A stretch of DNA of 64,000 nt from an uncultured Saprospiraceae bacterium (GTDB taxonomy: Bacteria; Bacteroidota; Bacteroidia; Chitinophagales; Saprospiraceae). The stretch spans positions 1 to 64,000 of the forward strand of contig CALJOK010000077.1 in assembly GCA_937981555.1 (NCBI GenBank), written 5' to 3'. The position numbers and the translations under genes were made by a program. Shown piece by piece: positions 14,458-44,146 of this stretch (position 1 is the first letter of the stretch; every line of letters begins with the position of its first letter). The notes beneath the pieces were generated by a model. The model saw only the letters and a program-made list of their open reading frames with translations, was not told where the DNA came from and did not search any database.

Positions 14458-14522
14458 TGACAAAGATCAAACTCAACGATGATTTTTGTCACTATTCTAT
14501 TTTTCATTTTGAAATAAATTTG
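14458..14522 (+). promoter_or_regulatory. FixK/FNR-type double-box promoter of the USP at 14560
   Basis: Boxes TGACAAAGATCA (14458-14469) and TGATTTTTGTCA (14480-14491), centres 22 bp apart. The -7 element TAAATTTG is at 14515-14522, its last base 36.5 bp from the proximal box centre. Confidence 0.85.
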
Positions 14523-14559
14523 ATGGAGAAATTTAGATTCAAATTAAAAATTCGAAAAC

Positions 14560-15420
14560 ATGAAAAATATTTTAGTGGCTACCGATTTTTCAGGATGTGC
14601 AATCAATGCCATGAATATGGGATTGGCCTTAGCAGAGTACTTTGATGCAACCATTCATTATCTGACGACGATGGATGATAATCGAAATGGAGAAGCTCTG
14701 GGCTTTTCATTTTTAACAAATTCTACTGCTGAAAAAGAGTTTGTAGAAAATGTAAATGTATTGTTTGAAAAATGGAAAAAGGAGGCCACCGTTAGGAATG
14801 TAAAAATAAAAACAACTTGTACCACAGGTAAAATATTACCAATTTTGAAGAAATATGTAAATGAAAATCAAATCGATTTTGTCGTCATGGGCTCTCATGG
14901 GCATAGTGGAGTGAAAGGTTTTTTTATTGGTTCTAATTGTCAAAAGGTAGTGCGTGCATTACACGTCCCTGTTTTTATAGTAAAAGATAAAGCCATAAAA
15001 TATGAATTTAAGAATGTAGTTTTTGCTTCCAATTTTAAAAATGAAGAGAAAGCTTCTTTTCAAAAGTTCTTAACCTTTATCTATAAATTTAAACCGGAGA
15101 TAATTCATCTAGTTGGGGTGAATACTTTAAATAGTTTTGCCAAATCTACTGAGGAGATGGAAAGACGTCTCGATGAATTTGCCAAGCAATGTAAGTTCGC
15201 AAAATGTAAAAAACATATTTATCCAGATTTATTTGTAGAAGCAGGGATCCGAAATTTTTCTGAAAAAATCAATGCGGATTTAATTGCCATTTCCAATCAT
15301 AATCGCCACCCAGTCAAACGAATTTTTTCAGGAAGTACAGTAGAGACTTTAGTGCAAAATTCCAACTTACCCGTTTTGAGTATTGACTTTTCTGAAGAGG
15401 AAATCTTAATAGGAAAATAA
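14560..15420 (+). CDS. tandem universal stress protein
   Basis: 286 residues, two UspA domains. The first (about 1-145) starts MKNILVATDFSGCA and has the ATP-binding G-2x-G-9x-GS signature in MGSHGHSGVKGFFIGSN. The second is degenerate, ending in HPVKRIFSGSTVETLVQNS. It is closest in the window to the USP at 41105-41959; both start M-K-N-I-L-V and share the phrase RIFSGS. Such proteins modulate survival in low oxygen or stationary phase. It is a single-gene unit behind a double-box promoter. A copy of the dispersed 15-mer lies inside it (14751-14765). Confidence 0.9.
   Translation: MKNILVATDFSGCAINAMNMGLALAEYFDATIHYLTTMDDNRNGEALGFSFLTNSTAEKEFVENVNVLFEKWKKEATVRNVKIKTTCTTGKILPILKKYVNENQIDFVVMGSHGHSGVKGFFIGSNCQKVVRALHVPVFIVKDKAIKYEFKNVVFASNFKNEEKASFQKFLTFIYKFKPEIIHLVGVNTLNSFAKSTEEMERRLDEFAKQCKFAKCKKHIYPDLFVEAGIRNFSEKINADLIAISNHNRHPVKRIFSGSTVETLVQNSNLPVLSIDFSEEEILIGK
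14751..14765 (+). repeat. dispersed 15-mer, copy 1 (exact)
   Basis: TGTAAATGTATTGTT inside the USP gene, where it encodes part of ENVNVLF. Confidence 0.7.
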
Positions 15421-15434
15421 AGTGAATTAAACAT

Positions 15435-15468
15435 AAAAAAGCCCCTGAAAGAAAAATTCTTCAGGGGC
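15435..15468 (-). terminator. intrinsic terminator
   Basis: GCCCCTGAA/TTCAGGGGC stem with a T-tract on the minus strand. It ends the 15539-15922 transcript and probably also stops read-through from the USP. Confidence 0.85.
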
Positions 15469-15538
15469 TCCAACAAAACAAACGAAAATTCAATTGGGTG
15501 GTGTTTTAATTTTTATCACTTCTATTTTAAACTTGCTC

Positions 15539-15922
15539 TTAATTGGGAGCGTGCAAATGTTTAGAAACAAATCCTCGGAAATTCTTTTTTAATTCTTCAA
15601 AACGAGCTATGAATTCTTCTAGCTTTTCTCTGATTTCCATATGTCCCCACAAGTCTTCCTCATTAAAAGAATTACTATCCGCCAAATGTCTTTCATGCAA
15701 AATAATTTGTCTACGAAAATGACTCACCTGATTTAATTTTTTAGAAAGAATTTTTTGATATTCATCCACATGTTCGATGATCGAATACAAATCAGGAAAC
15801 TCAAATAATACCTTTTCCAACTCTTTTTGAAAGATGTGAATTTGATCTTGATAAAAATCCAAAGAGCTTATCCAGTCTCGATGTTCTTGATGATGAAATT
15901 GAATGGTGTTTATAGTGGCCAT
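15539..15922 (-). CDS. conserved helical, His-rich protein of unknown function
   Basis: 127 residues, predicted all-helical with no signal. It begins MATINTIQFHHQEHRDWISS and has heptad-like leucines, and histidines spread along the chain (HHQEH, IEHVDEY, LHERHL, WGHMEIR, KHLHA). It resembles a family of about 120-residue helical-bundle proteins found in many Bacteroidota. The histidines recall hemerythrin-like proteins, but the spacing does not fit the canonical iron ligands, so I do not call it one. It is driven by a double-box promoter shared back to back with 16076-17326, so it belongs to the oxygen/redox regulon. Confidence 0.6.
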   Translation of the reverse strand: MATINTIQFHHQEHRDWISSLDFYQDQIHIFQKELEKVLFEFPDLYSIIEHVDEYQKILSKKLNQVSHFRRQIILHERHLADSNSFNEEDLWGHMEIREKLEEFIARFEELKKNFRGFVSKHLHAPN

Positions 15923-15932
15923 ATTTTTTTTT

Positions 15933-15997
15933 CAAAAGTATAATTTCCTTTTTTTCCAAAAAATGATTTTTGTCATAGTTATAAATGATTTTTATCA
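15933..15997 (-). promoter_or_regulatory. double-box promoter, minus direction
   Basis: Boxes TGATTTTTGTCA (15964-15975) and TGATTTTTATCA (15986-15997), 22 bp apart. The element TACTTTTG on the minus strand is at 15933-15940. Distance from the proximal centre is 36.5 bp. Confidence 0.85.
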
Positions 15998-15998: not shown

Positions 15999-16064
15999 TG
16001 ATAAAAATCATTTATGACTATTGATGAAAGTCACGATTCCTCTTTTAGTCTTCGCCTAAATTTG
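15999..16064 (+). promoter_or_regulatory. double-box promoter, plus direction
   Basis: Boxes TGATAAAAATCA (15999-16010) and TGATGAAAGTCA (16022-16033), 23 bp apart. TAAATTTG is at 16057-16064, again 36.5 bp. Together with the adjacent minus promoter this makes four boxes in 70 bp. Confidence 0.85.
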
Positions 16065-17885: not shown

Positions 17886-19442
17886 ATGGATAATCAAAAA
17901 ATGCTACAAGCGATGTTTGCGGAAGCGACGATTGGGATAATTGTAGTGAATAGCCAGGGGAAGATTGTACAAGCAAATCCTTTCTCCGAAAAACTTTTTG
18001 GTTACGAGAAGGGGGAACTAATTTTACAACCTGTTGAAGTGTTATTACCAAATTCTTTTCGAACTCGTCACGTAGAACATAGAAAAAAATATCATCAAAA
18101 ACCAATTCCTCGAACGATGGGAGCAAATCTTGAATTGCAAGGACAGCGAAAAGATGGTTCTCGTTTTTCGATAGAAATTAGTTTGAGTCATATGGATATT
18201 GATGGCGAACGATTTGCGATTGCTTATGCGAGTGATGATACGTTGCAGCAAGAAACATTCAAGAGTTTAAAAGAAGCTAAAAAAATTAGCGATGATATTT
18301 CGAATATTGTGGAAGATTCGTTAAGTGAAATTTTTATTTTCGATGGAGAGACGATGAAATTCATTCAAGTTAATAAAGGTGCTCGTCAGAATATGGGGTA
18401 CTCTTTAGAAGAAATGGAAATGATGACTCCCGTAGATATAAAACCGAATTTTGAGGAAGAAGAATTCCTTGGATTAATTGAACCATTGAAAGAAGGGAAG
18501 GTAAATGAATTATTATTTGAAACCATTCATATTCGAAAAAATGGCACCACTTATCCTGTAGAAGTGCATCTTCAATATTCGAGATTAGGAATGCAGCCAG
18601 TCTTTGTTGCTTTTATTTCAGATGTTTCTCAACGAAAAGAATACGAGCATAAAATTTTGATGCACTCTGAGGAGCTAGAGAAAAAGGTAATCGAACGAAC
18701 AGAAGAACTTCGAGCGAGTGAATCCAAACTTCGAGAATCTTTCGAAAAAGAAAAACAATTGGGGGAGTTAAAATCTCGGTTTGTCTCGATGGCTTCTCAT
18801 GAATTTCGAACGCCGTTGAGTTCCATTTTGTCATCAGCCAACTTGATTGGTCGATATGAAAAAGAAGAACAAAATGACAAACGAATGAAACATGTCAATC
18901 GAATCGAATCCTCTGTTCGGAATTTGACTACGATCTTAAATGACTTTTTGTCTTTGGAAAAATTGGAATCTGGAAAAGTAAGATACCATCCAGTAGAAAT
19001 TGAAATAGAAGAATATATTGAACAGGTAATTGATGAAATGAGTTTGATTTCGAAAAGTGATCAAAAAATTATTCATTTCCATGAAGGTGAAAAGCAGATA
19101 GTTGCAGATGAACATTTGCTCAAAAATATCATGCTCAATTTACTTTCCAATGGAATTAAATATTCTCCGGAAGGAAAAGATGTAGAATTACACACTCAAT
19201 ATACAGAAGAGAAAATAAGTATTCAAGTCAAAGATTATGGGATCGGAATTCCTGAAGCAGATCAAGAGTTAATGTTTACTAGATTTTTTAGAGCAAATAA
19301 TGTGATAAATATTCAAGGGACAGGATTGGGCTTGACGATTGTAAAAAGATATTTAGATCTAATGGGAGGAAAGATTTGGTTTGAAAGTGAAGAAGGAAAA
19401 GGAACTACTTTCTTTGTAGAAATTCCAAATGTAATAGAGTGA
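17886..19442 (+). CDS. PAS-PAS sensor histidine kinase
   Basis: 518 residues, cytoplasmic, no receiver. PAS1 (about 3-125) has a FixL-like helix with RTRHVEHRKKY, but the distal haem-pocket arginine position is leucine (TMGANLELQG), so haem binding is not supported. PAS2 is at about 130-255, followed by a coiled coil (about 258-290), HisKA with SHEFRTPLSS, and HATPase ending in NIQGTGLGLTIVKRY. The last 230 residues are strikingly like those of the haem-PAS kinase at 22297-23553, so both may phosphorylate the same regulator, the REC-CRP protein at 34570-35616. Its promoter lacks boxes, suggesting that it is made constitutively. Confidence 0.9.
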   Translation: MDNQKMLQAMFAEATIGIIVVNSQGKIVQANPFSEKLFGYEKGELILQPVEVLLPNSFRTRHVEHRKKYHQKPIPRTMGANLELQGQRKDGSRFSIEISLSHMDIDGERFAIAYASDDTLQQETFKSLKEAKKISDDISNIVEDSLSEIFIFDGETMKFIQVNKGARQNMGYSLEEMEMMTPVDIKPNFEEEEFLGLIEPLKEGKVNELLFETIHIRKNGTTYPVEVHLQYSRLGMQPVFVAFISDVSQRKEYEHKILMHSEELEKKVIERTEELRASESKLRESFEKEKQLGELKSRFVSMASHEFRTPLSSILSSANLIGRYEKEEQNDKRMKHVNRIESSVRNLTTILNDFLSLEKLESGKVRYHPVEIEIEEYIEQVIDEMSLISKSDQKIIHFHEGEKQIVADEHLLKNIMLNLLSNGIKYSPEGKDVELHTQYTEEKISIQVKDYGIGIPEADQELMFTRFFRANNVINIQGTGLGLTIVKRYLDLMGGKIWFESEEGKGTTFFVEIPNVIE

Positions 19443-19533: not shown

Positions 19534-19599
19534 TGATAAAAATCATAGCGAAGTAGTGATAATCGTCATTCTATCTTTTTCGAAGTGATAGTAATTTTG
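19534..19599 (+). promoter_or_regulatory. double-box promoter of the USP at 19635
   Basis: TGATAAAAATCA (19534-19545) and TGATAATCGTCA (19557-19568), 23 bp apart. TAATTTTG is at 19592-19599, 36.5 bp from the proximal centre. Confidence 0.85.
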
Positions 19600-20569: not shown

Positions 20570-20635
20570 TGATTAAAATCATATAAGAGAAGTGACAAAG
20601 GTCAATATTTGGATGGTGAGTCCTTTGTAATTTTA
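20570..20635 (+). promoter_or_regulatory. double-box promoter of 20668-21713
   Basis: TGATTAAAATCA (20570-20581) and TGACAAAGGTCA (20593-20604), 23 bp apart. TAATTTTA is at 20628-20635, 36.5 bp from the proximal centre. Confidence 0.85.
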
Positions 20636-22146: not shown

Positions 22147-22212
22147 TGACAAAAATCACTATCAAAAGGTGATTTTTGTCACCTATATGTTTTCTTACAA
22201 AGAATAATTTTA
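22147..22212 (+). promoter_or_regulatory. double-box promoter of the FixL-like kinase
   Basis: TGACAAAAATCA (22147-22158) and TGATTTTTGTCA (22170-22181), 23 bp apart. TAATTTTA is at 22205-22212, 36.5 bp. The two boxes also form a larger 17-bp inverted repeat (22144-22186). The sensor gene appears to lie under the regulator it would control. Confidence 0.85.
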
Positions 22213-22296
22213 CACATTAAAACCCTACAGGATGCTGAAAATTGAAACTAAAGCAACAACATAAAATAATAATTGGTGAGAGATTCAAATCTAAGT

Positions 22297-23553
22297 ATGT
22301 CAATTGATTCCCAACAGCTTCGAGCTATCTTCGAGACAGCTGTGGACTGCTTGATTATTATTGACTCTCATGGAGAGGTTTCTAAAATTAATCCTGCTGG
22401 AGCAAAACTGTTTGGTTATGAAATAAAAGAATTGGTAGGTCAAAATGTGAGTGTTTTGATGCCTGTACCTCACCGTGAGAAACATGATTCTTATCTCCAA
22501 AATTATCATACAACAGGTATTGGAAAAATCATCGGGATTGGACGCGATATCATTGGAAAGAAAAAGGATGGGACACTCTTTCCATGCAATTTAAGTGTCA
22601 ATGAATTCTTTATGCAGAGTAAAAAATGCTTTGCTGGAATCATTCATGACTTGACTACTCGGAAAAAACAGGAAGAGGAAATCTTAGAATTGAATCGACA
22701 GTTGGAAGAAAAGGTCGAAATCAAAACTAAAGACCTTTCTTCTGTTGTGAATGAATTATTAGAAACAAATACTCGCCTAGAAAACGAAATTAAAGAACGA
22801 CAAAAAATAGAAGCTGCTTTAAGAAATAATGAATTGGAAATTCGGAAGGCTTTGGAAAAAGAAAAAGAGCTCAATGATTTGAAGTCCAATTTTGTTTCGA
22901 TGGCTTCGCATGAATTCAGAACTCCGCTAAGTACTATTTTATCCTCTACTACTTTGATTGAAAAATATTTAGAAAATGGAAGCATCGAAAAAACGGAAAA
23001 ACATTTCAATCGAGTGATATCTTCAGTCAAACATCTAACCGAAATGTTAGATGATTTCCTCTCCTTAACTAAGTTGACAGAAGGGGAAATTCCAGTTAAT
23101 TCTGAGCAATTTATGATACATGATTTTTGTGAAGAATTTATGGAAATGAATAGAGGTTTACTCAAACCCAACCAAGAATTAATTAGAACAATACCTGCTG
23201 AGAATCAATCTGTTTTTTTAGATAAAAAATTATTGAACCATATTTTATTAAATCTTTTTTCCAACGCTATTAAATATTCTAAGGATGATGGCAAAATAAA
23301 ATGTGATGTAGAAATAGCTAATCAGCAATTAGAGATACAAATAATTGATGAAGGAATAGGTATTCCTTTGAATGAACAGAAACATCTTTTTACAAGGTTT
23401 TTTAGAGGAGCGAATGTAATTAATATTCAAGGAACTGGATTAGGGCTGAATATTGTGCAAGAGTATTTGGACGTGATGAATGGGACTATTGAATTTGAAA
23501 GCATAGAAAATGTAGGCACAACTTTTACGATAAAAATTCCTTTGCCACAATAA
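22297..23553 (+). CDS. FixL-like haem-PAS oxygen-sensing histidine kinase
   Basis: 418 residues, cytoplasmic, one PAS domain (about 5-120), coiled coil (about 125-195), HisKA with phospho-acceptor histidine about 205 (SHEFRTPLST), HATPase ending NIQGTGLGLNIVQEY. The PAS domain copies rhizobial FixL closely: GQNVSVLMPVP, REKHDSYLQNY with the proximal haem ligand at H63, and IIGIGRDIIG with the distal haem-pocket arginine at R83, 20 residues later as in FixL H200/R220. Haem binding and O2 sensing are therefore well supported by family knowledge. I chose ATG 22297 (MSIDSQQ) over an upstream TTG at 22273. It has no receiver of its own; the REC-CRP protein at 34570-35616 is the most likely target. 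Confidence 0.92.
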   Translation: MSIDSQQLRAIFETAVDCLIIIDSHGEVSKINPAGAKLFGYEIKELVGQNVSVLMPVPHREKHDSYLQNYHTTGIGKIIGIGRDIIGKKKDGTLFPCNLSVNEFFMQSKKCFAGIIHDLTTRKKQEEEILELNRQLEEKVEIKTKDLSSVVNELLETNTRLENEIKERQKIEAALRNNELEIRKALEKEKELNDLKSNFVSMASHEFRTPLSTILSSTTLIEKYLENGSIEKTEKHFNRVISSVKHLTEMLDDFLSLTKLTEGEIPVNSEQFMIHDFCEEFMEMNRGLLKPNQELIRTIPAENQSVFLDKKLLNHILLNLFSNAIKYSKDDGKIKCDVEIANQQLEIQIIDEGIGIPLNEQKHLFTRFFRGANVINIQGTGLGLNIVQEYLDVMNGTIEFESIENVGTTFTIKIPLPQ

Positions 23554-24321: not shown

Positions 24322-24386
24322 TAAAAATAAGAGAGGGGAGGAAAATTTTATATGATATAAATCACTATTCTAATTGAACTTTGTCA
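24322..24386 (-). promoter_or_regulatory. double-box promoter of the VIT transporter
   Basis: TGATATAAATCA (24353-24364) and the weaker TGAACTTTGTCA (24375-24386), 22 bp apart. TATTTTTA on the minus strand is at 24322-24329, 36.5 bp from the proximal centre. Confidence 0.75.
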
Positions 24387-25164: not shown

Positions 25165-25229
25165 TGACTTAAATCATCTTTTGTTTTGACAAAACTCACC
25201 TTTTGCCAAATTGATCACATTTAAATTTG
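25165..25229 (+). promoter_or_regulatory. double-box promoter of ccoI
   Basis: TGACTTAAATCA (25165-25176) and TGACAAAACTCA (25187-25198), 22 bp apart. TAAATTTG is at 25222-25229, 36.5 bp. Transcription should start near 25234, which rules out the TTG at 25227 as start codon. Confidence 0.8.
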
Positions 25230-25250: not shown

Positions 25251-27719
25251 ATGAATAACATTGCTCCAATAAAAGAAAATATACACGAGTCTATTTCATC
25301 TACTTGCTTCCATTGTGGCGAAAATTGTGGAGATGTAAATGTATTGTTACATGATAAACGTTTCTGTTGTCAAGGCTGTAAAATGGTTTATGAAATTCTT
25401 CATGAAAAAGACCTTTGCCAATATTATGATATCGATGCCCAAGCAGGTGTTTCTCTTCGAGGAAAAAAACGAACTCAATTTGCGTGGTTAGATGACGAAG
25501 TAATTCAGTCTCAATTGATTGATTATCAAGAAGATATGATTACGAAAGTAACATTTTTTTTACCTGCTATCCATTGTGCCTCATGTGTTTGGTTATTAGA
25601 AAACCTTTTCAAATTCAATGAAGGTATACTTGATTCCAAAATAAATTTTATCAAAAAAGAAATTTATTTGACTTTTGATAGTTCGAAAGTTTCATTGCGG
25701 GATTTGGCAGAATTGCTCGTTTCGATTGGCTATACTCCTGAGATAAATTTAGGGGATTTAGATAAATCGAAAAGAAAAAAAGTAGATAAAAAATTAATTT
25801 ACCAACTCGGTGTTGCAGGCTTTGGTTTTGGAAATGTAATGTTATTAAGCTTCCCAGAATATTTAGGTCTCGATGAAATCAATGCAATTGGTTTTCAAAA
25901 AATATTTGGATGGATTAATATTTTGTTGGCTATTCCTATCGTTTTTTTTAGTGGGAAAGATTATTTGAAATCTGCTTGGCTGAGTTTGCAGCAGCGGAAT
26001 TTAAATATTGATGTACCTATTTCGATTGGGATTTTGACTTTGTTTGGAAGAAGCATTTTTGAAATATTGAGTGGAGTAGGAGCAGGGTATTTAGACTCGT
26101 TGGCTGGACTCGTCTTTTTTCTTTTAATTGGAAAATGGTTTCAACAGATCACCTTTAATCACCTCTCTTTTGAGCGTGATTACAAATCATATTTTCCCGT
26201 AGCAGCATTGTTGCAAAATGGAGAAACGACGCCTATCCAGAATCTAAAAAAGGGAGATATTATTATTGTGAAAAATAAAGAACTGATTCCGGCAGATGGA
26301 ATTTTGATGCAAGGACAAGGTTCAATTGATTATAGTTTTGTGACCGGCGAATCAGATGCCGTTGCTAAAAATAAAGGAGATCAAATTTTTGCAGGCGGAA
26401 AACAATTGGGAGAATCTGTTGAAATTCAAATTACCAAAACTGTTTCTCAAAGTTATTTGACCCAACTTTGGAATGATGCTGTTTTCTCAAAAGAAGGTTT
26501 ATCGCAACACAATCAGACTCAACTTTTAGCAGATAAAGTAGGAAAAAATTTTACCTACATCATTCTTACCATTGCCTTTTTGACGCTGTTTTATTGGTTG
26601 ACGATTGATGTTGTAATTGCAGTAAATGCATTTACATCAGTTCTGATTATTGCTTGTCCATGTGCGGTGGCATTGTCGATTCCTTTCACTTTTGGGAATG
26701 CGATTCGGATCTTAGGAAAGCATGGTTTTTATCTAAAAAACACAAAAGTGATTGAGCAGTTTCAGCAAGTTACTGCGGTAATTTTTGATAAAACGGGAAC
26801 GCTTACTTTTACGAAAGATAATTCGATTGAGAAAAATAACAAAACAATTACATTTCATGGAGATGAATTGACTGAGGAAGAAAAGCATCATGTCATGTGG
26901 ATGGTTTCGCAGTCAACTCATCCATTGAGTCAAAGAATTTTGGGGTTATTAAGAGGGGAAGTTGAAACTGAAAAGGTGCTTCCTCTCGCTTCCAAAGATT
27001 TTTTAGAAATTGAAGGGAAAGGACTACGAGCAGTTATCAATCAAAAAGTAATAAAAATAGGATCCGCCAACTTTACCCAAAATAAAGCAAATGATCTAGC
27101 CAATGTTTTTCTTCAAATTGACGGAAAGACCAAAGGCTTTTTTACCATAAAAAATCAATACCGAAAAGGCTTCGAAACAATTCTTCATTTTTATAAAAAC
27201 AAAAATGCGATCCATCTCTTGTCAGGGGATAATGAGAAAACTCGGAAAGAATTGGAACCTTATTTTGGAAAAAATCTGCACTATCTCCAAAGTCCAAAAG
27301 ACAAATTAAATTTCACAAAACAACTTCAATCGCAAGGTGAACAAGTACTTATGTTTGGCGACGGATTAAATGATGCGGGGGCATTGCAACAAAGTAATGT
27401 GGGAGTAGTGATTGCAGAAGACACAAACAATTTCACTCCTGCTTGTGATGCTATTTTGGATGCAAAATCGTTTCCTCAACTTCCTCGGTTTTCTAAATAT
27501 ATGCAAGGTTGTCTGCGCTTGGTTTACATGGCTTACGGGCTAGCTTTTATTTATAATTTGATTGGTTTGAGTTATGCCGTTCAAGGAGAACTGTCTCCTT
27601 TGATCGCTGCTATTCTTATGCCAGCTAGTTCGATTACGATTGTTTTATTTGGTGTTTTCTCAGGAACATTTTTGGCTTGGAAAATTGGGCTAGGTGATGA
27701 AAATCATACCCCTGATTGA
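25251..27719 (+). CDS. ccoI: cbb3 oxidase copper-loading P1B-type ATPase
   Basis: 822 residues. The N-terminal cysteine cluster CFHCGENC...FCCQGCKMVYE is typical of CcoI/FixI. An HMA domain follows with CASC in AIHCASCVWLL, then eight membrane helices with the CPC metal-site motif (IIACPCAVALS), the phosphorylation loop DKTGTLTF and the hinge GDGLNDAGAL. CcoI pumps copper for the CuB site of cbb3 oxidase. The start ATG 25251 is dictated by the promoter. A copy of the dispersed 15-mer lies within the cysteine cluster (25334-25348). The last codons contain the distal box of the ccoS promoter. Confidence 0.93.
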   Translation: MNNIAPIKENIHESISSTCFHCGENCGDVNVLLHDKRFCCQGCKMVYEILHEKDLCQYYDIDAQAGVSLRGKKRTQFAWLDDEVIQSQLIDYQEDMITKVTFFLPAIHCASCVWLLENLFKFNEGILDSKINFIKKEIYLTFDSSKVSLRDLAELLVSIGYTPEINLGDLDKSKRKKVDKKLIYQLGVAGFGFGNVMLLSFPEYLGLDEINAIGFQKIFGWINILLAIPIVFFSGKDYLKSAWLSLQQRNLNIDVPISIGILTLFGRSIFEILSGVGAGYLDSLAGLVFFLLIGKWFQQITFNHLSFERDYKSYFPVAALLQNGETTPIQNLKKGDIIIVKNKELIPADGILMQGQGSIDYSFVTGESDAVAKNKGDQIFAGGKQLGESVEIQITKTVSQSYLTQLWNDAVFSKEGLSQHNQTQLLADKVGKNFTYIILTIAFLTLFYWLTIDVVIAVNAFTSVLIIACPCAVALSIPFTFGNAIRILGKHGFYLKNTKVIEQFQQVTAVIFDKTGTLTFTKDNSIEKNNKTITFHGDELTEEEKHHVMWMVSQSTHPLSQRILGLLRGEVETEKVLPLASKDFLEIEGKGLRAVINQKVIKIGSANFTQNKANDLANVFLQIDGKTKGFFTIKNQYRKGFETILHFYKNKNAIHLLSGDNEKTRKELEPYFGKNLHYLQSPKDKLNFTKQLQSQGEQVLMFGDGLNDAGALQQSNVGVVIAEDTNNFTPACDAILDAKSFPQLPRFSKYMQGCLRLVYMAYGLAFIYNLIGLSYAVQGELSPLIAAILMPASSITIVLFGVFSGTFLAWKIGLGDENHTPD
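25334..25348 (+). repeat. dispersed 15-mer, copy 2 (exact)
   Basis: TGTAAATGTATTGTT inside ccoI, encoding part of DVNVLL between two cysteine clusters. Confidence 0.7.
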
Positions 27720-27759
27720 CAAACGTCACCTGATAAAAATCATCTTCCTTCTACATTTG
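27695..27759 (+). promoter_or_regulatory. triple-box promoter of the cco operon
   Basis: TGATGAAAATCA (27695-27706, inside the end of ccoI) and TGACAAACGTCA (27717-27728) form the standard pair, 22 bp apart; TACATTTG is at 27752-27759, 36.5 bp. A third box TGATAAAAATCA (27731-27742) lies between the pair and the -7 element, a place where binding could repress. Confidence 0.85.
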
Positions 27760-27778: not shown

Positions 27779-27937
27779 ATGAAAATTATTTTTTTACTCA
27801 TTCTCGTAAGTCTTTTGGTAGCCATTGGTTTCCTAGCGGCTTTTTTTTGGGCCGTGAAATCAGGACAATATGAGGATGATTATACTCCATCGATTCGAAT
27901 TTTATTTGATGACAAAAACGAAAAAAAAACGAAGTAA
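27779..27937 (+). CDS. ccoS: cbb3 oxidase maturation protein CcoS
   Basis: 52 residues: MKIIFLLILVSLLVAIGFLA, then FFWAVKSGQYEDDYTPSIRI. One N-terminal helix plus the conserved FxWxxxxGQ(Y/F)DD motif identifies CcoS, which is needed to insert haem b and CuB. The TAA stop is directly followed by the ATG of ccoNO. It is the first gene after the triple-box promoter. Confidence 0.92.
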   Translation: MKIIFLLILVSLLVAIGFLAAFFWAVKSGQYEDDYTPSIRILFDDKNEKKTK

Positions 27938-30070: not shown

Positions 30071-30080
30071 ATATTACCCA

Positions 30081-30113
30081 ATTCACAAGGTGACTTCAAG
30101 TCGCCTTGTGAAT
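30081..30113 (+). other. intercistronic hairpin ccoNO/ccoQ
   Basis: ATTCACAAGGTGA/TCGCCTTGTGAAT, 7-base loop, no T-tract. It is probably a processing or mRNA-stability element rather than a terminator, since ccoQ and ccoP follow. Confidence 0.6.
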
Positions 30114-30121
30114 GATATAGA

Positions 30122-30136
30122 TGTAAATGTATTGTT
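30122..30136 (+). repeat. dispersed 15-mer, copy 3 (exact, intergenic)
   Basis: TGTAAATGTATTGTT lies between the ccoNO hairpin and the ccoQ start, outside any gene I accept. Confidence 0.7.
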
Positions 30137-30159
30137 GTAAAAAAATTAAAAAAATAAAA

Positions 30160-30351
30160 ATGTATAAATATATTTTAGAAAGAGCAGGTGATATTGATTG
30201 GATGGCAATAGTTCCTTTGCTCATATTCACGACAGTTTTTGCCATAGTTGTCATCCGAGCGATTACCGCTAAAAAGGATTTTATCAATAAAATGGCCAGT
30301 CTTCCACTAGATGAAAACGATTCTTTAAAAAATCAAAATGAAATGATATGA
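30160..30351 (+). CDS. ccoQ: small cbb3 oxidase subunit CcoQ
   Basis: 63 residues starting MYKYILERAGDIDW, one membrane helix (about 16-36, MAIVPLLIFTTVFAIVVIRA), then a charged tail. Size, topology and position between ccoNO and ccoP identify it as CcoQ-like, although CcoQ is poorly conserved. ATG 30160 is preferred to one at 30127 that would add a basic, non-conserved stretch overlapping the repeat. The TGA stop overlaps the ccoP ATG. Confidence 0.75.
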   Translation: MYKYILERAGDIDWMAIVPLLIFTTVFAIVVIRAITAKKDFINKMASLPLDENDSLKNQNEMI

Positions 30352-31292
30352 ACAAGTTTAAAATATGGACAACACTTTTGATTTTGTTGATAGCGGCTCC
30401 TATTTGGGCTGCAGTTGGAGAGGAAGAAGGGAGAAGTATGTTTAACTGGACGATTGAAAATATCGTCATGATTATGGGAAGTGCGGTAGTGTTAAGTGCA
30501 TTGTATTTAATGTGGACTGCAACGAAAACGATTTGGCGAGCACAAGCGATTAACCGATTTGAATCTCAAGGATTGAGTCATGAAGCTGCAGTTGCAAAAG
30601 CTAAAAAAGAAAGTTTCTTAAGTTACATGTATCAACAATTGGATGGTGGAGTTTCTTTGGAAAAAGAAACAGATATTTTATTAAACCATAATTATGATGG
30701 TATACAGGAGCTAGATAATAATTTGCCACCATGGTGGGTTGGGATGTTTTATTCGACGATAGTTTTTGCTTTTTTATATCTCGGGATTTATCATTTTTCG
30801 GATATTGGAAAAAGTCAAATCGAAGAATATGAACAAGAAGTTATTGATACAGATAGAGCTATTGCAGCTTATATGGCAGCTCAAAAAGCAGCGAAAACTA
30901 CGGAACTAAACGCTGATAATGTTACTGAATTGACTGCGACAGATCGATTGGCGGCAGGGCAAGCAAATTTTAAAAGTTACTGTATGGCTTGTCATGGAAT
31001 GCTAGGGGAAGGAATAGAAAATCTAGGTCAAAACTTGACGGATGACTATTGGATTCATGGCGGAGGAATCAAAAATATTTTCAAAACTATCTCCGAAGGT
31101 GTTCCAGGTAAACCTATGGTGGCTTGGAAAGAAGCATTGAGTGCTGATCAGATTCAAGAATTGGCAAGTTATATTATGACTTTAAAAGGAACGAATCCAC
31201 CTAATGCGCGACCTCCTGAAGGAGAGTTATATGAAGCAGGAGCGACTAGTGAAATTCCTCAGACTGGGGAAGTCGAAGTTGGAACCGAATAA
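30348..31292 (+). CDS. ccoP: cbb3 oxidase cytochrome c subunit CcoP (mono-haem form)
   Basis: 314 residues. Signal-like N-terminus, helix at about 35-60, a CcoP N-terminal region with the conserved NNxPPWW (DNNLPPWWVGMFYSTIVFAF, about 124-145), and one cytochrome c domain with CMACH (C about 212). Proteobacterial CcoP has two haem c groups; here only one CxxCH is present and a methionine ligand is supplied by PMVAWK. The acidic tail ends EVGTE. It accepts electrons from the bc complex or a cytochrome c and passes them to CcoNO. Confidence 0.92.
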   Translation: MNKFKIWTTLLILLIAAPIWAAVGEEEGRSMFNWTIENIVMIMGSAVVLSALYLMWTATKTIWRAQAINRFESQGLSHEAAVAKAKKESFLSYMYQQLDGGVSLEKETDILLNHNYDGIQELDNNLPPWWVGMFYSTIVFAFLYLGIYHFSDIGKSQIEEYEQEVIDTDRAIAAYMAAQKAAKTTELNADNVTELTATDRLAAGQANFKSYCMACHGMLGEGIENLGQNLTDDYWIHGGGIKNIFKTISEGVPGKPMVAWKEALSADQIQELASYIMTLKGTNPPNARPPEGELYEAGATSEIPQTGEVEVGTE

Positions 31293-31306
31293 GATTTTAA
31301 AATTTC

Positions 31307-31340
31307 GGAGAGTGAATTGTTTTAGAACAATTCGCTCTCC
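31307..31340 (+). other. intercistronic hairpin ccoP/ccoG
   Basis: GGAGAGTGAATTGTT/AACAATTCGCTCTCC, 4-base loop, only a short T-run. It is a weak terminator or stability element that could lower expression of the assembly genes ccoG and ccoH. Confidence 0.65.
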
Positions 31341-31361
31341 TTTGTAATAATTTATAAAAAA

Positions 31362-32825
31362 ATGAGTGCTTCAGAACCTATAAAAGATACAGAGGCTTAT
31401 CGAGATTCGATAGCCACCGTAGGTAAGGATGGAAAGCGAATTTGGTTATATCCAAAGAAGCCGAAAGGTAAGTTTACCAATTATCGAACTTATCTAAGTT
31501 GGGTGTTATTGATCGTTCTTTTTGGAATGCCATTTCTCAAAGTGGATGGGGAACCATTTATGATGTTCAATGTATTGACGCGTAATTTTATTGTTTTTGG
31601 AGTTCACTTTGCGCCGCAGGATTTTTATTTATTTGTCTTGGCGGTGCTCACTTTTATTGTTTTCATTGTTTTGTTTACCGTAGTTTTTGGAAGACTATTT
31701 TGTGGATGGGTTTGTCCTCAAACTATTTTTATGGAAATGGTTTTTCGAAAAATAGAATATGCGATTGAAGGGGATGCCAATGCTCAACGACGACTGAATA
31801 AAGCACCTTGGACAACTCAAAAAATAATTAAGAAAACAACGAAGCATATTATTTTTTACTTCATAGCAATCTTAATTGCCAATACTTTTTTGTCCTACAT
31901 AATAGGTGTGGATGAGGTGGGGAAAATAATTTCTGAACCTATCCACCAACATCTTGGAGGTTTCTCTGCGATGTTGATTTTCTCAGCAGTTTTCTATGGT
32001 GTTTTTGCTTTTATGCGGGAGCAAGTTTGTATTGCCGTTTGTCCTTATGGTCGATTGCAAAGTGTTTTGTTGGATGAAAATTCAGTAGTAGTAGCTTACG
32101 ATTATATGCGTGGAGAACCTCGAGGAAAGATTAAAAAGAAACCTATTACCAAAAAGAATCCGCTAGAATTTATTCAAGCAAGTGTGGCAAGTCCTGTGGA
32201 AAAAATAGAAACTCAGTTAGGTGATTGTATCGATTGCAAAATGTGTATAAATGTTTGTCCAACAGGAATTGATATTCGAAATGGTACGCAACTCGAATGT
32301 GTCAATTGCACCGCATGCATCGATGCTTGTGATGAAATTATGGAAAAAGTAGATCGTCCACTTGGCTTGATTCGATATGACTCAGAAAAAGGAATTCGAG
32401 AAAGGAAAAAGAAAATTTTCACCACTCGGGTAATAGCTTATTCGGCAGTTTTGGTAGCACTTTTAGCGTTGCAAGGATTCTTGTTGGCAAATAGAAATGA
32501 TGTAGATGTATTGTTATTAAAATCTCCTGGGACATTATATCAGGAGGTGGATGAGTCAACTTTAAGCAACTTATACAATTATCAAATCATCAATAAAACT
32601 TCTAAGGTTTTCCCAATCGAGTTTAGAATGAAAAACGGAATTGGGGAAGTAAAGACGGTTGGTCCACAACCCATGACGAAGAAAAATGGAGTGACTAAAG
32701 GTGTTGTTTTTATTGAATTACCAAAAGATAAGTTGAAGGGACATTCGACGGAATTCAAAGTTGAAGTACTTTCAAAAGGAATAGTGATAGATGAGTTGAC
32801 GACTAACTTTTTAGGGCCAGAATAA
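31362..32825 (+). CDS. ccoG: cytochrome c oxidase accessory protein CcoG (Fe-S, copper reductase)
   Basis: 487 residues, four N-terminal-half membrane helices, then a ferredoxin-like domain with two four-cysteine sets: CIDCKMCINVCPTGIDI and CVNCTACIDACDEIM. Extra conserved cysteines occur in CGWVCPQTIF and CIAVCPYGR. A membrane helix (about 350-370) precedes a periplasmic immunoglobulin-like C-terminal domain, as in FixG/RdxA. CcoG reduces Cu(II) for CuB assembly. A one-mismatch copy of the dispersed 15-mer lies at 32501-32515. Confidence 0.93.
   Translation: MSASEPIKDTEAYRDSIATVGKDGKRIWLYPKKPKGKFTNYRTYLSWVLLIVLFGMPFLKVDGEPFMMFNVLTRNFIVFGVHFAPQDFYLFVLAVLTFIVFIVLFTVVFGRLFCGWVCPQTIFMEMVFRKIEYAIEGDANAQRRLNKAPWTTQKIIKKTTKHIIFYFIAILIANTFLSYIIGVDEVGKIISEPIHQHLGGFSAMLIFSAVFYGVFAFMREQVCIAVCPYGRLQSVLLDENSVVVAYDYMRGEPRGKIKKKPITKKNPLEFIQASVASPVEKIETQLGDCIDCKMCINVCPTGIDIRNGTQLECVNCTACIDACDEIMEKVDRPLGLIRYDSEKGIRERKKKIFTTRVIAYSAVLVALLALQGFLLANRNDVDVLLLKSPGTLYQEVDESTLSNLYNYQIINKTSKVFPIEFRMKNGIGEVKTVGPQPMTKKNGVTKGVVFIELPKDKLKGHSTEFKVEVLSKGIVIDELTTNFLGPE
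32501..32515 (+). repeat. dispersed 15-mer, copy 4 (one mismatch)
   Basis: TGTAGATGTATTGTT inside ccoG, encoding part of DVDVLL. Confidence 0.6.
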
Positions 32826-32885
32826 TTTTTCACCATATAGAAAACATAACTTTTTATGTGTCTATGTTTTCTCCGTGGTGAAAAA
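32826..32885 (+). other. long intercistronic hairpin ccoG/ccoH
   Basis: Two nested arms: TTTTTCACCA (32826-32835) with TGGTGAAAAA (32876-32885), and AGAAAACATA (32839-32848) with TATGTTTTCT (32863-32872). They begin directly after the ccoG stop. No T-tract follows. It could be a stability element or a remnant of a small mobile repeat. Confidence 0.65.
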
Positions 32886-32906
32886 TCACAATTAAAAAAT
32901 ACAATT

Positions 32907-33347
32907 ATGAAATTCAATTGGGGAACTGGAATCACATTGTTTTATATGGTATTTATGTTTACCATGATCTACATGGTATATCAAAGTACACAAGTAGAGC
33001 GTAATTTGGTATTCGAAAATTACTATGAAAAGGATCTACAATATCAGTCTCATCTCGACAAAGTAAAAAACACTTCTACGTTGAAAAATGACTTAGGAAT
33101 TTTTCAAAATAAAGAGGAAAAATACCTTCGTTTTGCATTTCCAAAAGAGTTGGCAGAAGTCAAAGGTGATATTCTTTTTTATCGGCCTTCGGATAGTTCT
33201 AAAGATTTTAATACTGAAATTAAGATTGATGCAACACATGAAATACGCATTCCTACATCAGCTTTGCAAACGGGAATTTGGAAAATAAAAGTGAATTGGG
33301 AAGGAGACAAAACACTTTATTATAAAGAAGCAACGATCCAAATTTGA
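32907..33347 (+). CDS. ccoH: FixH/CcoH family cbb3 assembly protein
   Basis: 146 residues, one N-terminal membrane helix (MKFNWGTGITLFYMVFMFTM) and a periplasmic beta-sandwich (FRPSD-type FYRPSDSSKDF, then TGIWKIKVNWEGD). Both are typical of FixH, which stabilises the oxidase with CcoI. The ATG at 32907 follows the hairpin; an upstream frame start would lie inside the hairpin. The stop overlaps the next start. Confidence 0.88.
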   Translation: MKFNWGTGITLFYMVFMFTMIYMVYQSTQVERNLVFENYYEKDLQYQSHLDKVKNTSTLKNDLGIFQNKEEKYLRFAFPKELAEVKGDILFYRPSDSSKDFNTEIKIDATHEIRIPTSALQTGIWKIKVNWEGDKTLYYKEATIQI

Positions 33348-34048
33348 TGATTAGTTTTTTGGCAGCATTTACCGTTGGATTATTTGGAAGTTTACATTGC
33401 GTTGGCATGTGTGGACCGATAGCTGCTGCCTTACCTTACCCTTCGCAAAAGAAAAGTCATCTTCTCGGAAGTGTATTGTTATATAATTCTGGGCGAATTT
33501 TAACTTATGGCTTTTTAGGGATTTTGTTTGGGGTTTTAGGAGCTAGTTTTTCTTTAGCAGGGTTCCAACAATTCATTTCTCTTTTTTTAGGAATAGTATT
33601 CTTAATGGCTGGATTTTTTTCATTTAACTTAGAAACTACTTTGCTTAAATGGAAATGGACAAGCCGAATTTTCTTTTTTGTAAAAAGTAGATTGAGTGTT
33701 TTTTTACAAAAAAAATCACTTCAATCACTTTTCTTCATCGGTCTCATGAATGGTTTGTTGCCTTGCGGATTAGTTTACATTGCTTTGGCTGGAGCAATCT
33801 CATCTGGAACAATCGGAGGTGGTTTTATGTGGATGGTTGCTTTTGGATTGGGAACTATTCCATTGATGATGGTAGCAGCGATTTCTGGAAATTTAATAAA
33901 AATACCATTACGTAATTTTTTTAAAAAAGCATATCCAATCCTATTGATAACATTTGCCGTACTATTTATCATCAGAGGATTGAATGTAGATATTCCTGAC
34001 AATTGGTATTATTTAAATTTATTCGGAGAACAAATTATGTGTCATTGA
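33347..34048 (+). CDS. sulfite-exporter/DsbD_2-like membrane protein (cbb3 assembly-associated)
   Basis: 233 residues, six membrane helices. It opens LAAFTVGLFGSLHCVGMCGP, the HCxGMCG signature of the DsbD_2/SafE family commonly found at the end of cco/fixGHIS clusters, and has a second half-repeat with GLMNGLLPCGLVYIALAGA. The paired cysteines and glycine-proline kinks suggest metal (copper) or reductant transport for oxidase assembly. Its ATG overlaps the TGA of ccoH by one base, indicating translational coupling. The exact substrate is not known. Confidence 0.88.
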   Translation: MISFLAAFTVGLFGSLHCVGMCGPIAAALPYPSQKKSHLLGSVLLYNSGRILTYGFLGILFGVLGASFSLAGFQQFISLFLGIVFLMAGFFSFNLETTLLKWKWTSRIFFFVKSRLSVFLQKKSLQSLFFIGLMNGLLPCGLVYIALAGAISSGTIGGGFMWMVAFGLGTIPLMMVAAISGNLIKIPLRNFFKKAYPILLITFAVLFIIRGLNVDIPDNWYYLNLFGEQIMCH

Positions 34049-34053: not shown

Positions 34054-34118
34054 TGATAAAAATCATTATTCGAATTGATAAAAGTCATCTTTTTCTTTCT
34101 TAGATGAACTTAATTTTA
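34054..34118 (+). promoter_or_regulatory. double-box promoter of 34154-34408
   Basis: TGATAAAAATCA (34054-34065) and TGATAAAAGTCA (34076-34087), 22 bp apart. TAATTTTA is at 34111-34118, 36.5 bp. The ATG at 34118 overlaps the -7 element and cannot be the start. Confidence 0.85.
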
Positions 34119-34569: not shown

Positions 34570-35616
34570 CTATCCAGGCAGATCTCGTAATTTTTCTAAT
34601 TGTAAAATACTAATGTTGCTATAATCTATATCTACCAATCCTTCATTTTTAAAATCAGTCAAAGTACGAATGACACTCTCTTTAGCTGTCCCAACGATAC
34701 TTGCTAGATCTTCTCGAAGGATAGTAATAGAAGTTTCTCCATCTGTATTTTTTGACAAATCCACCAACGCTTCAGCTACTCTTTTCCGAATAGAATTATA
34801 AGCAAGACTCAATAATTTCTCTTCTTGGTCTTCCATGTTTTTGGCCAACATCTTGATGAAGCGTGCCGCAAAATTTTGATTGTAATGAAGCATTCTAAAG
34901 AAATCATCTTTAGGAATATGACTGAGTACAGTTCCTTCCATGGCAGCAGCTGATTCAGCATGAGGAGACTCTTGAATCATGGATAAATAGCCTAAGAATT
35001 CTCCAGATTCATGAACGCCCGTGATATATTCTTTGCCCCACTCATTCGTTTTATAAGTCTTTACTTTTCCCGAAACGATAAAATACAATTGTCTTGGACG
35101 TTCACCTTCTTGATAAATTTTTTCTTTCTTTTTGAACTCCTTTGTCGTTCGCTCTTCTGTTAATTTATCTAATTCTTGTTGTCCACGAGCTTCATTGATA
35201 AAGGCAGTTAACCCTTGATTGGTTCCGTCAAATGCTTTTTTGATTCGGTCACTTTTTTTGATTCTTCTTTCGATCACATCTAACAATTCAGACTGATCAA
35301 AAGGTTTAGTGATATAATCATCCGCACCTAGATTCATCCCTTTTCGAAAATCACTTCGTTCCGCTTTGGCAGTTAAAAAGATAAAAGGAATCTCAGCCGT
35401 TTTTGGTTTTTTTCCTAAAATATTCAATACCCCATAGCCATCGAGTTCAGGCATCATCACATCACAAAGAATCAAATCAGGAGTGTCCGTTAATGCTTTT
35501 TGTACACCAATTTTTCCATTCTCAGCAGTAACTGTTTCGAAGTTAGAGAGTTCTAATATTTCTGCCAAGTTCTCTCTGACTTCTAAATTATCTTCTATGA
35601 TTAAAATCTTTTTCAT
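34570..35616 (-). CDS. response regulator fused to a CRP/FNR-type DNA-binding protein
   Basis: 348 residues. REC domain (1-120): acidic pocket E8/D9, phospho-acceptor D52 in LCDVMMPELDG, T82 and K104. Linker helix (about 125-155). Effector-type beta-roll (about 160-265) without the cAMP phosphate-binding arginine and without FNR-type Fe-S cysteines; the only cysteine is C51. CRP-type helix-turn-helix (about 298-326) with recognition helix KESVIRTL, whose E313 and R317 correspond to the E and R that read TGA half-sites in CRP, FNR and FixK. Activation by phosphorylation is thus likelier than by ligand or cluster. The gene is preceded by its own pair of boxes, so autoregulation is likely. Confidence 0.93.
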   Translation of the reverse strand: MKKILIIEDNLEVRENLAEILELSNFETVTAENGKIGVQKALTDTPDLILCDVMMPELDGYGVLNILGKKPKTAEIPFIFLTAKAERSDFRKGMNLGADDYITKPFDQSELLDVIERRIKKSDRIKKAFDGTNQGLTAFINEARGQQELDKLTEERTTKEFKKKEKIYQEGERPRQLYFIVSGKVKTYKTNEWGKEYITGVHESGEFLGYLSMIQESPHAESAAAMEGTVLSHIPKDDFFRMLHYNQNFAARFIKMLAKNMEDQEEKLLSLAYNSIRKRVAEALVDLSKNTDGETSITILREDLASIVGTAKESVIRTLTDFKNEGLVDIDYSNISILQLEKLRDLPG

Positions 35617-35656: not shown

Positions 35657-35722
35657 CAAAGAACTCCAATTCAAACCTAGCTAAAGATGATAAATATCAC
35701 CAAAAGCTAATGATTTTTATCA
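35657..35722 (-). promoter_or_regulatory. double-box promoter of the REC-CRP regulator
   Basis: TGATAAATATCA (35688-35699) and TGATTTTTATCA (35711-35722), 23 bp apart. A weak -7 element GTTCTTTG (minus strand, 35657-35664) keeps the 36.5-bp spacing. Confidence 0.7.
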
Positions 35723-38466: not shown

Positions 38467-38531
38467 TGATGAAAATCACCATTTGATTTGATAGAAGTCA
38501 ATACCCACCTTTTTTTTCCTTCCTAACTTTG
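38467..38531 (+). promoter_or_regulatory. double-box promoter of the lipoprotein at 38561
   Basis: TGATGAAAATCA (38467-38478) and TGATAGAAGTCA (38489-38500), 22 bp apart. TAACTTTG is at 38524-38531, 36.5 bp. Confidence 0.88.
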
Positions 38532-40924: not shown

Positions 40925-40989
40925 TAAAATTAGTCCATGCATATCCTTTTATCATTGATGAAAATCAATGGAGAAGATGATATTTATCA
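40925..40989 (-). promoter_or_regulatory. double-box promoter of 40535-40912
   Basis: TGATGAAAATCA (40956-40967) and TGATATTTATCA (40978-40989), 22 bp apart. TAATTTTA on the minus strand is at 40925-40932, 36.5 bp. Confidence 0.85.
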
Positions 40990-42535: not shown

Positions 42536-42587
42536 AATTCTTATTTTTTTAAAATTAAATAATTGATTGTCAAATAGTTTTTGATCT

Positions 42588-42622
42588 AAAAAATCCTTCC
42601 TAGAGTTGAATCATAGGAAGGA
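42588..42622 (-). terminator. intrinsic terminator
   Basis: TCCTTCCTA/TAGGAAGGA stem with six T on the minus strand. It ends the 44016-42699 transcript. Confidence 0.8.
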
Positions 42623-42698
42623 TCTACATTGCTTATTTAAAAAACTGGAGCAGTATAGGTTTTTTGAAAAAAACGTCTACTAGCTCCACACTCGAAAA

Positions 42699-43547
42699 CT
42701 ACTCATTTAGTAAGTGAAAAACCATCACAGGAAGTTTGGAGGTTCTTGCCATTTTTTTAGTTAGACTCAATTGGAATATATTTTCCAAATAATTTCGTTG
42801 ACGATTGACTAAAACGATAAGGTCTATTTCATTTTCATCTGCATATTGATTCAGTCCTTCCAAGACAGAACGGTTCTTAATATTGACGATGTTAAATGAA
42901 AATGCAGGATCTCCTTTTTCAAAAAGTTTATAGAAAATAGTATCTTCTACTGTTTCATAATTATCATTTTCTTCCACATGTACAAAGTGCATGGTAGCCC
43001 TAAAAACATTTCCGAAGTCAATAATTTGATCAACCAAATCTTCATCAGCTGATTCATAATTACTGGCGTAAAGTACATCTTCATAATCCTTATATTTTGT
43101 TCCTTGAGGAACTAAAATCACCGGACAATGAGCTCGCTGAGCTACTCCAGAAGAAATACTTCCAAACATTTTATCGAGTACATTTCCAGTTCCAGTCGTA
43201 CCGATAACAACCATAGCAATATCATCCTCATTCGAAGTTAAATTGACTATTTGTTGAGTTGTATTCAATCCAACAATTGCTTCTGTCTCGATTTTTTGGC
43301 GAGTCAAAACATTGGAAGTTTGGCTATTTTCAAGATTGACTTTTACAAACTCGTTCATCTGCTCAATAATCGTTTCCTCCCGAGTTTTTTCAGCATGAAG
43401 ATTTATCGAAGCATTAATATTCAAATTGCCATTATATACATGCACCAACTTAATGGAGAAACCCAATGTATCACCCAAGCGTTTAGCATACAAGAAAGCA
43501 TCCATCGAACATTGCGAAAAATCTATAGGCACTAATATATTTTTCAT
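42699..43547 (-). CDS. tandem universal stress protein
   Basis: 282 residues: KNILVPIDFSQCSMDAFLYA, nucleotide signature IGTTGTGNVLDKMFGSIS, second domain ending YLENIFQLSLTKKMARTSKL. The VLEGLNQYADENEIDLIVLV segment parallels GLKEYAREKNMDWMVLV in the 35836 USP. It is preceded by a CBS gene with a 34-base gap, giving a CBS-USP operon that mirrors the plus-strand arrangement. Confidence 0.9.
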   Translation of the reverse strand: MKNILVPIDFSQCSMDAFLYAKRLGDTLGFSIKLVHVYNGNLNINASINLHAEKTREETIIEQMNEFVKVNLENSQTSNVLTRQKIETEAIVGLNTTQQIVNLTSNEDDIAMVVIGTTGTGNVLDKMFGSISSGVAQRAHCPVILVPQGTKYKDYEDVLYASNYESADEDLVDQIIDFGNVFRATMHFVHVEENDNYETVEDTIFYKLFEKGDPAFSFNIVNIKNRSVLEGLNQYADENEIDLIVLVNRQRNYLENIFQLSLTKKMARTSKLPVMVFHLLNE

Positions 43548-43581
43548 GTTGGGAAGTTTTATTTTTAGTTAAAGATTAAAC

Positions 43582-44016
43582 TTATGAATTGACATTAGAC
43601 GTCTCTTCATTAAGCGTTCTGATAATATCAAAAGTGGTAACGATGCCAACCAATCTATCATTTTCGACAACTGGTAATGCTCTAAATAAATTTTTACTAA
43701 AAATATCTAAAGCGACATTGATACGATCAGTTGGTTTTAATTTACCTACGCCACGAGTCATGATGACTTCCACGTTGTAATTATTAAGGCGTGTTTCATT
43801 AATGATTTTTTCCAAAGTATTTTCACCTAAGCCTTTCATAAAAAGCAGTAAATCTTCTCTACTGATGATCCCAACTACTTTGTTTGATCGAGTAACTGGA
43901 ATATGGTGAATAGCATGCTCTTTAAAGATATCTCTGACACGAGTCAAGCGATCTCTTTCGGCAACACTAATTACATCTTTAGTCATAATGGTAGAAACTG
44001 GAGCTAAAACATTCAT
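43582..44016 (-). CDS. CBS-pair protein
   Basis: 144 residues: IMTKDVISVAERDRLTRVRD...HHIPVT and IMTRGVGKLKPTDRINVALD...RALPVV. Paralogue of 17357-17785 (shared FMKGLGENTLEKIINETRLNN versus FLKGMNYNSYQDLMNDVRLK). First gene of a minus-strand CBS-USP operon; it may share the box pair at 44081-44115 with the divergent copper-chaperone-like gene. Confidence 0.88.
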   Translation of the reverse strand: MNVLAPVSTIMTKDVISVAERDRLTRVRDIFKEHAIHHIPVTRSNKVVGIISREDLLLFMKGLGENTLEKIINETRLNNYNVEVIMTRGVGKLKPTDRINVALDIFSKNLFRALPVVENDRLVGIVTTFDIIRTLNEETSNVNS

Positions 44017-44050
44017 AATTTATTTTTTTTAGTGAACAATTATTTGATCA

Positions 44051-44146
44051 CAAATTGAGGAGAAACCAGAGTAGAATTGATGATTTTTGTTACAAGCAAA
44101 TGATGATTTTTGTCACCCTTTATCTTTTTTAGCTACTATAACTTTG
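44051..44146. promoter_or_regulatory. shared box pair between divergent genes
   Basis: TGATTTTTGTTA (44081-44092) and TGATTTTTGTCA (44104-44115), 23 bp apart. Plus strand: TAACTTTG at 44139-44146, 36.5 bp. Minus strand: TCAATTTG (44051-44058), one base off the standard distance, could serve 43582-44016 with the box order reversed. Confidence 0.75.

Follow-up and report, generated by a model that had tools for sequence, protein, structure and literature searches.

The first 64,000 nucleotides of contig C77 from an uncultured Saprospiraceae bacterium (genome G000, 7.25 Mb in 117 contigs), hereafter the window, contain a 30-kb island (positions 14,458–44,146) that encodes a cbb3 oxidase and its assembly proteins, universal stress proteins (USPs), two histidine kinases, several uncharacterised proteins, and a protein in which a receiver domain is fused to a CRP/FNR-type DNA-binding part (hereafter the fused regulator). 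Genes on both strands of this island are preceded by promoters of one design, in which two FNR-like palindromes (boxes) stand in tandem at a fixed distance from a −7 element, TANNTTT(G/A). This grammar is real, and it is conserved in related genomes.

A preliminary description of the window counted fifteen such promoters, each with a box centred exactly 36.5 bp upstream of the final base of the −7 element and nearly all with a second box 22–23 bp further up. A motif scan identifies 32 strict TGAYNNNNRTCA boxes in the window, whereas resampling it with Markov models of order 1, 2 and 3 (100 resamplings each) gives means of 6.6, 6.1 and 7.1 and maxima of 13, 13 and 19, with never more than 19 boxes in the 300 runs; some 6–7 boxes are thus expected by chance, and the described excess is borne out. 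Of the 15 promoters, 13 combine a box pair with TANNTTT(G/A) at a single register, ten of them without mismatch and three (24313(-), 25251 and 44159) with a single mismatch, in one of the boxes. Every one of the 13 has its −7 element ending 42 nt downstream of the start of the proximal box, hence 36.5 nt from the box centre as had been described, and the distal box is always present, either 22 bp (8 promoters) or 23 bp (5) upstream of the proximal one. The other two do not share the design: 35616(-) has a strict box pair with 23-bp spacing, but the sequence at its −7 register is only GTTCTTTG, and 24488 has one strict box (24441) with neither a second box at 22–23 bp nor a −7 element. Rfam and tRNA scans of the window gave no matches and so no support for the RNA proposed at 24488, and 41105, described as a near fit, fits weakly with 3 mismatches. 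As to the idea that the boxes replace a TTG at −33, this triplet is not conserved in 80 aligned promoters, but a box-less control of 182 sites likewise has no −33 peak, and the comparison is therefore uninformative.

Table 1. Regulated promoters and principal genes of the island. Promoters are named by gene start; box positions are given where noted.
Name	Feature	Coordinates	Strand	Elements and evidence
14560	Promoter of USP gene 14560-15420	14458..14522	+	Boxes 14458, 14480; −7 TAAATTTG ending 14522; 0 mismatches
15922(-)	Promoter of uncharacterised gene 15539-15922(-)	15933..15997	-	Boxes 15986, 15964; −7 TACTTTTG ending 15933; 0 mismatches
16076	Promoter of beta-lactamase-fold gene 16076-17326	15999..16064	+	Boxes 15999, 16022; −7 TAAATTTG; 0 mismatches; Pfam Beta-lactamase
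	Second histidine kinase, two PAS domains, flanked by regulated genes	17886..19442	+	Pfam
19635	Promoter of USP gene 19635-20483	19534..19599	+	Boxes 19534, 19557; −7 TAATTTTG; 0 mismatches; Pfam Usp
20668	Promoter of uncharacterised gene 20668-21042	20570..20635	+	Boxes 20570, 20593; −7 TAATTTTA; 0 mismatches
22297	Promoter of FixL-like kinase gene	22147..22212	+	Boxes 22147, 22170; −7 TAATTTTA; 0 mismatches
	Soluble histidine kinase, FixL-type haem PAS (residues 15-140), proposed oxygen sensor	22273..23553	+	PDB 1dp6 match
24313(-)	Promoter of VIT-family transporter gene 23558-24313(-)	24322..24386	-	1 mismatch, distal box; Pfam VIT1
25251	Promoter of copper P-type ATPase (CcoI-like) gene, start 25251	25165..25229	+	1 mismatch, proximal box; Pfam
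27779	Promoter of ccoS(27779)-ccoNO-ccoP-ccoG-ccoH	27695..27759	+	0 mismatches; CcoS TIGR00847; COX1+FixO
	cbb3 oxidase and assembly: ccoS, fused ccoNO (27938-30070), ccoP, ccoG, ccoH, DsbD_2-like membrane gene	27779..34048	+	ccoP and ccoH named by reading the sequence
34154	Promoter of small uncharacterised gene 34154-34408	34054..34118	+	0 mismatches
	Receiver + cNMP-fold + HTH_Crp_2 protein (fused regulator), proposed box reader	34570..35616	-	Pfam
	Strict box pair, 23-bp spacing, in the gap separating regulator gene (-) from USP gene 35836 (+)	35688..35722	.	
38561	Promoter of uncharacterised gene 38561-39379	38467..38531	+	0 mismatches
40912(-)	Promoter of uncharacterised gene 40535-40912(-)	40925..40989	-	0 mismatches
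44159	Promoter of heavy-metal-associated small protein 44159-44425	44081..44146	+	1 mismatch, distal box; CopZ-like matches weak, below cut-off

A whole-genome scan for a single box followed at the fixed distance by the −7 element (box-N23-TANNTTTR) yields 20 matches and none for the control, the same pattern read backwards. Twelve of these are in the island, three elsewhere have a second box (two on contig C11, one on C14), and five elsewhere lack one. Strict box pairs number 15 in the genome, with 11 in the island, three on C11 and one on C14; near the C11 group are two USP genes, a ribosome-hibernation-type gene and transporters, all named from sequence. Among 150 genomes of the family, 72 contain the full pattern of two boxes and −7 element and none contains the reversed control. 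Outside the island, two genomes of the genus also share a conserved tandem-box promoter next to a histidine-kinase gene (L037:7254-7317 and L158:5964-5997).

Conservation of the box spacing in relatives, on which the preliminary description had made its proposal depend, is evident around homologues of the fused regulator. The 80 loci compared (1.33 Mb, 336 boxes) are the best, from named genomes, of a larger scan, and a few are near-copies of one another (e.g. L132 and L147). They come from Saprospiraceae, Pontibacter, Rufibacter, Dyadobacter, Emticicia, Reichenbachiella, Ohtaekwangia and many metagenome-assembled genomes. The regulator homologues L105, L144 and L149, whose records bear the labels Alphaproteobacteria, Bacteriovoracaceae and Azovibrio, probably lie on misplaced Bacteroidota contigs. 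The start-to-start distance between boxes is 22 bp in 38 cases and 23 bp in 8, with every other spacing seen at most twice, and TANNTTTG ends at 42 (29 cases), 41 (7), 64 (46) or 65 (6) from a box start, with no other position occurring more than three times. Seventy-five promoters with no more than two mismatches are spread over 46 of the loci. Downstream of 45 of them is an open reading frame like those of the island (13 USPs, 11 ccoNO genes behind a short gap, 8 kinases, 3 CcoI, 3 CBS proteins, 2 regulators and 5 small uncharacterised proteins), and Pfam searches with 10 picked from the 30 other targets identified a radical-SAM protein (HemN-like by our reading of its sequence), two Hsp20 proteins, a ScdA/hemerythrin repair-type protein, a DoxX-like protein and others. 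One regulon of rigid FNR/FixK-like promoters, with targets centred on the cbb3 oxidase and USPs, is therefore both supported in the window and conserved in relatives.

The promoters of the oxidase itself show the same boxes, in many cases with a variant −7 element. Regions upstream of ccoNO were compared from 60 of the 91 family genomes that carry these genes; 34 contain a strict pair, and 48 a pair at 22/23 spacing with at most one mismatch. Poor conservation of these promoters had been considered when the strict TANNTTT pattern placed only 13 of 59 within two mismatches, and was rejected when the boxes scored alone gave the 48 of 60. A TANNTT[TG] element ends at position 42 in 29 regions and at 43 in 8, and the commonest element at the register is TAnnTTGC (20 of 48 promoters, L195-L254), with TAnnTTTG in only 2. 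TAnnTTGC resembles a class of Flavobacterium psychrophilum promoters, TAnnTTGY at −12 to −5, a place shared with TAnnTTTG, in the available sections of PMC9723704; taking the −7 element as −12 to −5 from that source puts the boxes at −41.5 and −63.5/−64.5. The same sections report that oxygen limitation raises expression of cbb3 and haem-synthesis genes in F. psychrophilum.

What reads the boxes? The preliminary description pointed to a conventional FixK/FNR protein, which is not supported, as the best-fitting protein of the island is the fused regulator, without FNR cysteines, and a FixL-type haem-PAS kinase also sits in the same regulon. The fused regulator, lying inside the island, likely reads the boxes. 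Pfam identifies Response_reg (2e-27), cNMP_binding and HTH_Crp_2 domains in it. The receiver residues D9, D52, T82 and K104, corresponding to the phospho-acceptor Asp and the acid/Thr/Lys set, are invariant in 19 sequences, in which the sole conserved Cys is C51 of the receiver and there is no N-terminal cysteine cluster of the FNR type. The E and R of the recognition helix align with those of CRP, although the residues that we take to contact cyclic AMP in CRP are not kept. The protein matches the structure of FixK2 (4i2o, E 3.9e-10) and scores 70.6 bits against NCBIfam FixK NF050806, below its cut-off of 300; among the 60 PDB matches listed of 287, each covers one part and none spans both receiver and CRP part. 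Few of 19 relatives have a box pair upstream of the regulator gene, which fits the usual place of this gene after a kinase gene.

That arrangement, with a kinase gene directly upstream of the regulator gene on the same strand, is found in 71 of the 80 loci. In the window, the kinase gene 22273-23553 has the same promoter design as the rest of the regulon. The PAS domain of its product has the FixL haem domain 1dp6 as best PDB match (E 1.9e-30), HisKA/HATPase domains are present, and both the haem His and the distal Arg (presumably H200 and R220 in BjFixL numbering) are kept in the alignment; against the rhizobial FixL model NF041777 of NCBIfam it scores 163 bits, below the cut-off of 850. Among 63 aligned kinases neighbouring regulator genes, 59 have His at the haem position, which alone is weak evidence, and 28 the distal Arg; a strongly FixL-like PAS with both residues is found in 16.

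The promoters and the fused regulator also occur together. Promoters are present in 68 of 113 family genomes with the regulator versus 4 of 37 without it (p=1e-7, uncorrected for shared descent). In a sample of the phylum the regulator is found in 43 of 296 genomes, and, again uncorrected for shared descent, at least one strict pair is present in 29 of these 43 versus 22 of the 253 others, and at least two in 21 of 43 versus 2 of 253 (21 of 43 versus 1 of 30 within the class). The ccoNO genes occur together with the regulator as well (84 of 113 family genomes versus 7 of 37). Boxes upstream of ccoNO give a weak contrast, 45 of 52 with the regulator versus 3 of 7 without (p=0.018), and one of these three, G128, carries a regulator fragment.

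We therefore propose, with a probability of about 0.72, that the island is a low-oxygen regulon in which a FixL-like kinase acts on the receiver–FNR fusion that reads the tandem boxes. The haem-PAS kinase (22273-23553) would be active when its haem is free of oxygen, passing phosphate to the receiver part of the fused regulator (34570-35616), which would then dimerise and bind both palindromes. The dimer at −41.5 would contact sigma and RNA polymerase from a class II position, and a second, co-operative dimer would sit two helical turns upstream at −63.5/−64.5. Promoters of the Bacteroidota sigma-A type would thereby be activated for the cbb3 oxidase, its copper ATPase, USPs, kinases and others.

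Several observations weigh against this proposal. None of the co-occurrence counts is corrected for phylogeny, 45 of the 113 family genomes with the regulator have no strict TANNTTT promoter (in part because many cbb3 promoters use TAnnTTGC), and 14 of the 43 regulator-bearing genomes of the phylum have no strict pair. The regulator gene of the window has no kinase gene at its side, the FixL-like kinase being 12 kb away, and its own promoter lacks a −7 element. Only 28 of the 63 neighbouring kinases keep the distal Arg, and many of them may bind no haem. In G078, a genome from the same genus, five strict pairs, four of which have a −7 element, occur without a fused regulator, and G027, G070 and G049 are further exceptions. 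There is no match to ccoNO in G078, two of its pairs correspond, by the genes around them, to the satellite pairs on C11 and C14 of the window genome, and on its contig C45 (L194:10372-10791) are short stretches, with stops, that resemble the termini of a histidine kinase and of a CBS protein; the matching pairs and these stretches make it possible that G078 lost the island and kept leftover sites.

In a rival reading, a separate one-component CRP/FNR protein reads the boxes, the fused regulator being a bystander. Further CRP/FNR proteins are encoded in the genome of the window, and one, L179, has an E..SR recognition helix (SREAVSRLL) that could bind similar boxes and an orthologue, L177, in G078, which has boxes and no fused regulator; tandem boxes in G418 adjoin FNR-type proteins with N-terminal cysteines instead. 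Three stand-alone proteins of the window genome, however, have SRQTVT at the recognition helix and lack the E...R pair. The commonest stand-alone type, present in 125 of 150 family genomes, is more weakly linked to boxes (65 of 125 versus 7 of 25, p=0.03, five of the 25 absences being taken from an unlisted remainder), and boxes occur in 4 of 28 genomes with this type but no fused regulator, compared to 7 of 16 with the regulator but without this type. We regard a bystander regulator as improbable. Only a little less so is a fused regulator that reads the boxes in answer to another signal, whether a different PAS ligand, redox or nitric oxide, or phosphorylation by the kinase 17886 or others. 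The island does contain two kinases, and outside close relatives most neighbouring kinases are 23–38% like the FixL PAS, many without the distal Arg; nonetheless, both haem residues are kept in the window kinase and 16 relatives, and the targets are a low-oxygen set. Chance or composition need hardly be entertained: the 12-mer is AT-rich, as is the genome, and 6–7 copies are expected in the window, but the exact spacing (recurring in the 80 loci), the empty reversed controls set against 72 of 150 family genomes, the ccoNO pairs and the recurrence in GC-richer genomes refute such an artefact.

The proposed circuit has parts in common with several known systems. The FixL-FixJ-FixK cascade of rhizobia and Caulobacter (available sections of PMC4999443) likewise has a haem-PAS kinase, FNR-like palindromes, and cco, kinase and regulator genes among its targets; FixJ, in contrast, is described there as a response regulator that acts mainly through induction of fixK, whereas the fused regulator unites receiver and FNR-like reader in a single protein, which would save a transcription step. 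In domain terms FixJ joins its receiver to a LuxR-type helix-turn-helix (HTH), and the fused regulator joins its own to a cyclic-nucleotide (cNMP) fold and HTH_Crp_2. FixK2 is also a CRP-fold activator without an Fe-S cluster, and FixK, unlike the fused regulator, has no receiver domain. CRP shares the fold and the aligned E and R, and differs at the cyclic AMP contacts. FNR, a one-component Fe-S protein, likewise has TGAY-N4-RTCA boxes, TTGAT-like palindromes, at −41.5, and the HTH of the fused protein clusters with FNR-type proteins from other Bacteroidota that bear the cysteines; the fused regulator differs in having a receiver domain in place of the N-terminal cysteine cluster. The mycobacterial DosR regulon is alike in its haem kinases, universal stress proteins and paired palindromes, with an unrelated DNA-binding domain and motif. 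Neither such a receiver–FNR fusion nor these two-box promoters were found in the literature searched, outside of which lie most subscription journals. The parts of FixL, FixJ, FixK and FNR are already known, and the combination is best read as a shortened FixL-FixJ-FixK low-oxygen switch.

The relationship to FNR may extend further. G418 and G416 have several box pairs, no fused regulator, and FNR-type proteins with N-terminal cysteines (L255:968-1678(-), L256:4330-5037(-), L258:382-1089(+) and L259:557-1273(+) are proteins of this type from genomes without the fused regulator), and in some genomes such proteins adjoin cbb3 genes, one of them in G418. In a tree of 42 effector domains (midpoint root, long branches) the fused proteins cluster together (97/94) beside the cysteine proteins, and the two together are apart from most stand-alone proteins (93/93). 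The tree and the cysteine proteins in box-bearing genomes suggest a swap of input, receiver for Fe-S cluster, at the same boxes. Tentatively, and at somewhat under even odds, we suggest that in a large part of the Bacteroidota a receiver coupled to a haem kinase took the place of the Fe-S sensor of FNR, with promoter grammar and core targets kept, and that related lineages use a cysteine-bearing FNR at the same boxes. If so, this would be a clean case of a regulon changing its sensor while keeping its promoters. The proposed circuit would itself reduce the FixL-FixJ-FixK cascade to two proteins, offer a model of oxygen control that can be tested in Bacteroidota beyond the gut genera, and provide a promoter rule precise enough for predicting targets from sequence.

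Two smaller features of the island are of note. The box pair 35688/35711 is followed in neither direction by a TANNTTTR at the register and may serve both directions; a lone strict box at 35805-35816 is 20 nt before the USP gene 35836, too near for the usual register. The genes 20668-21042 and 40535-40912(-) encode members of one small protein family of about 120 aa, without Pfam or NCBIfam match, that is found in 17 of the 80 regulator loci, four times behind a tandem-box promoter.

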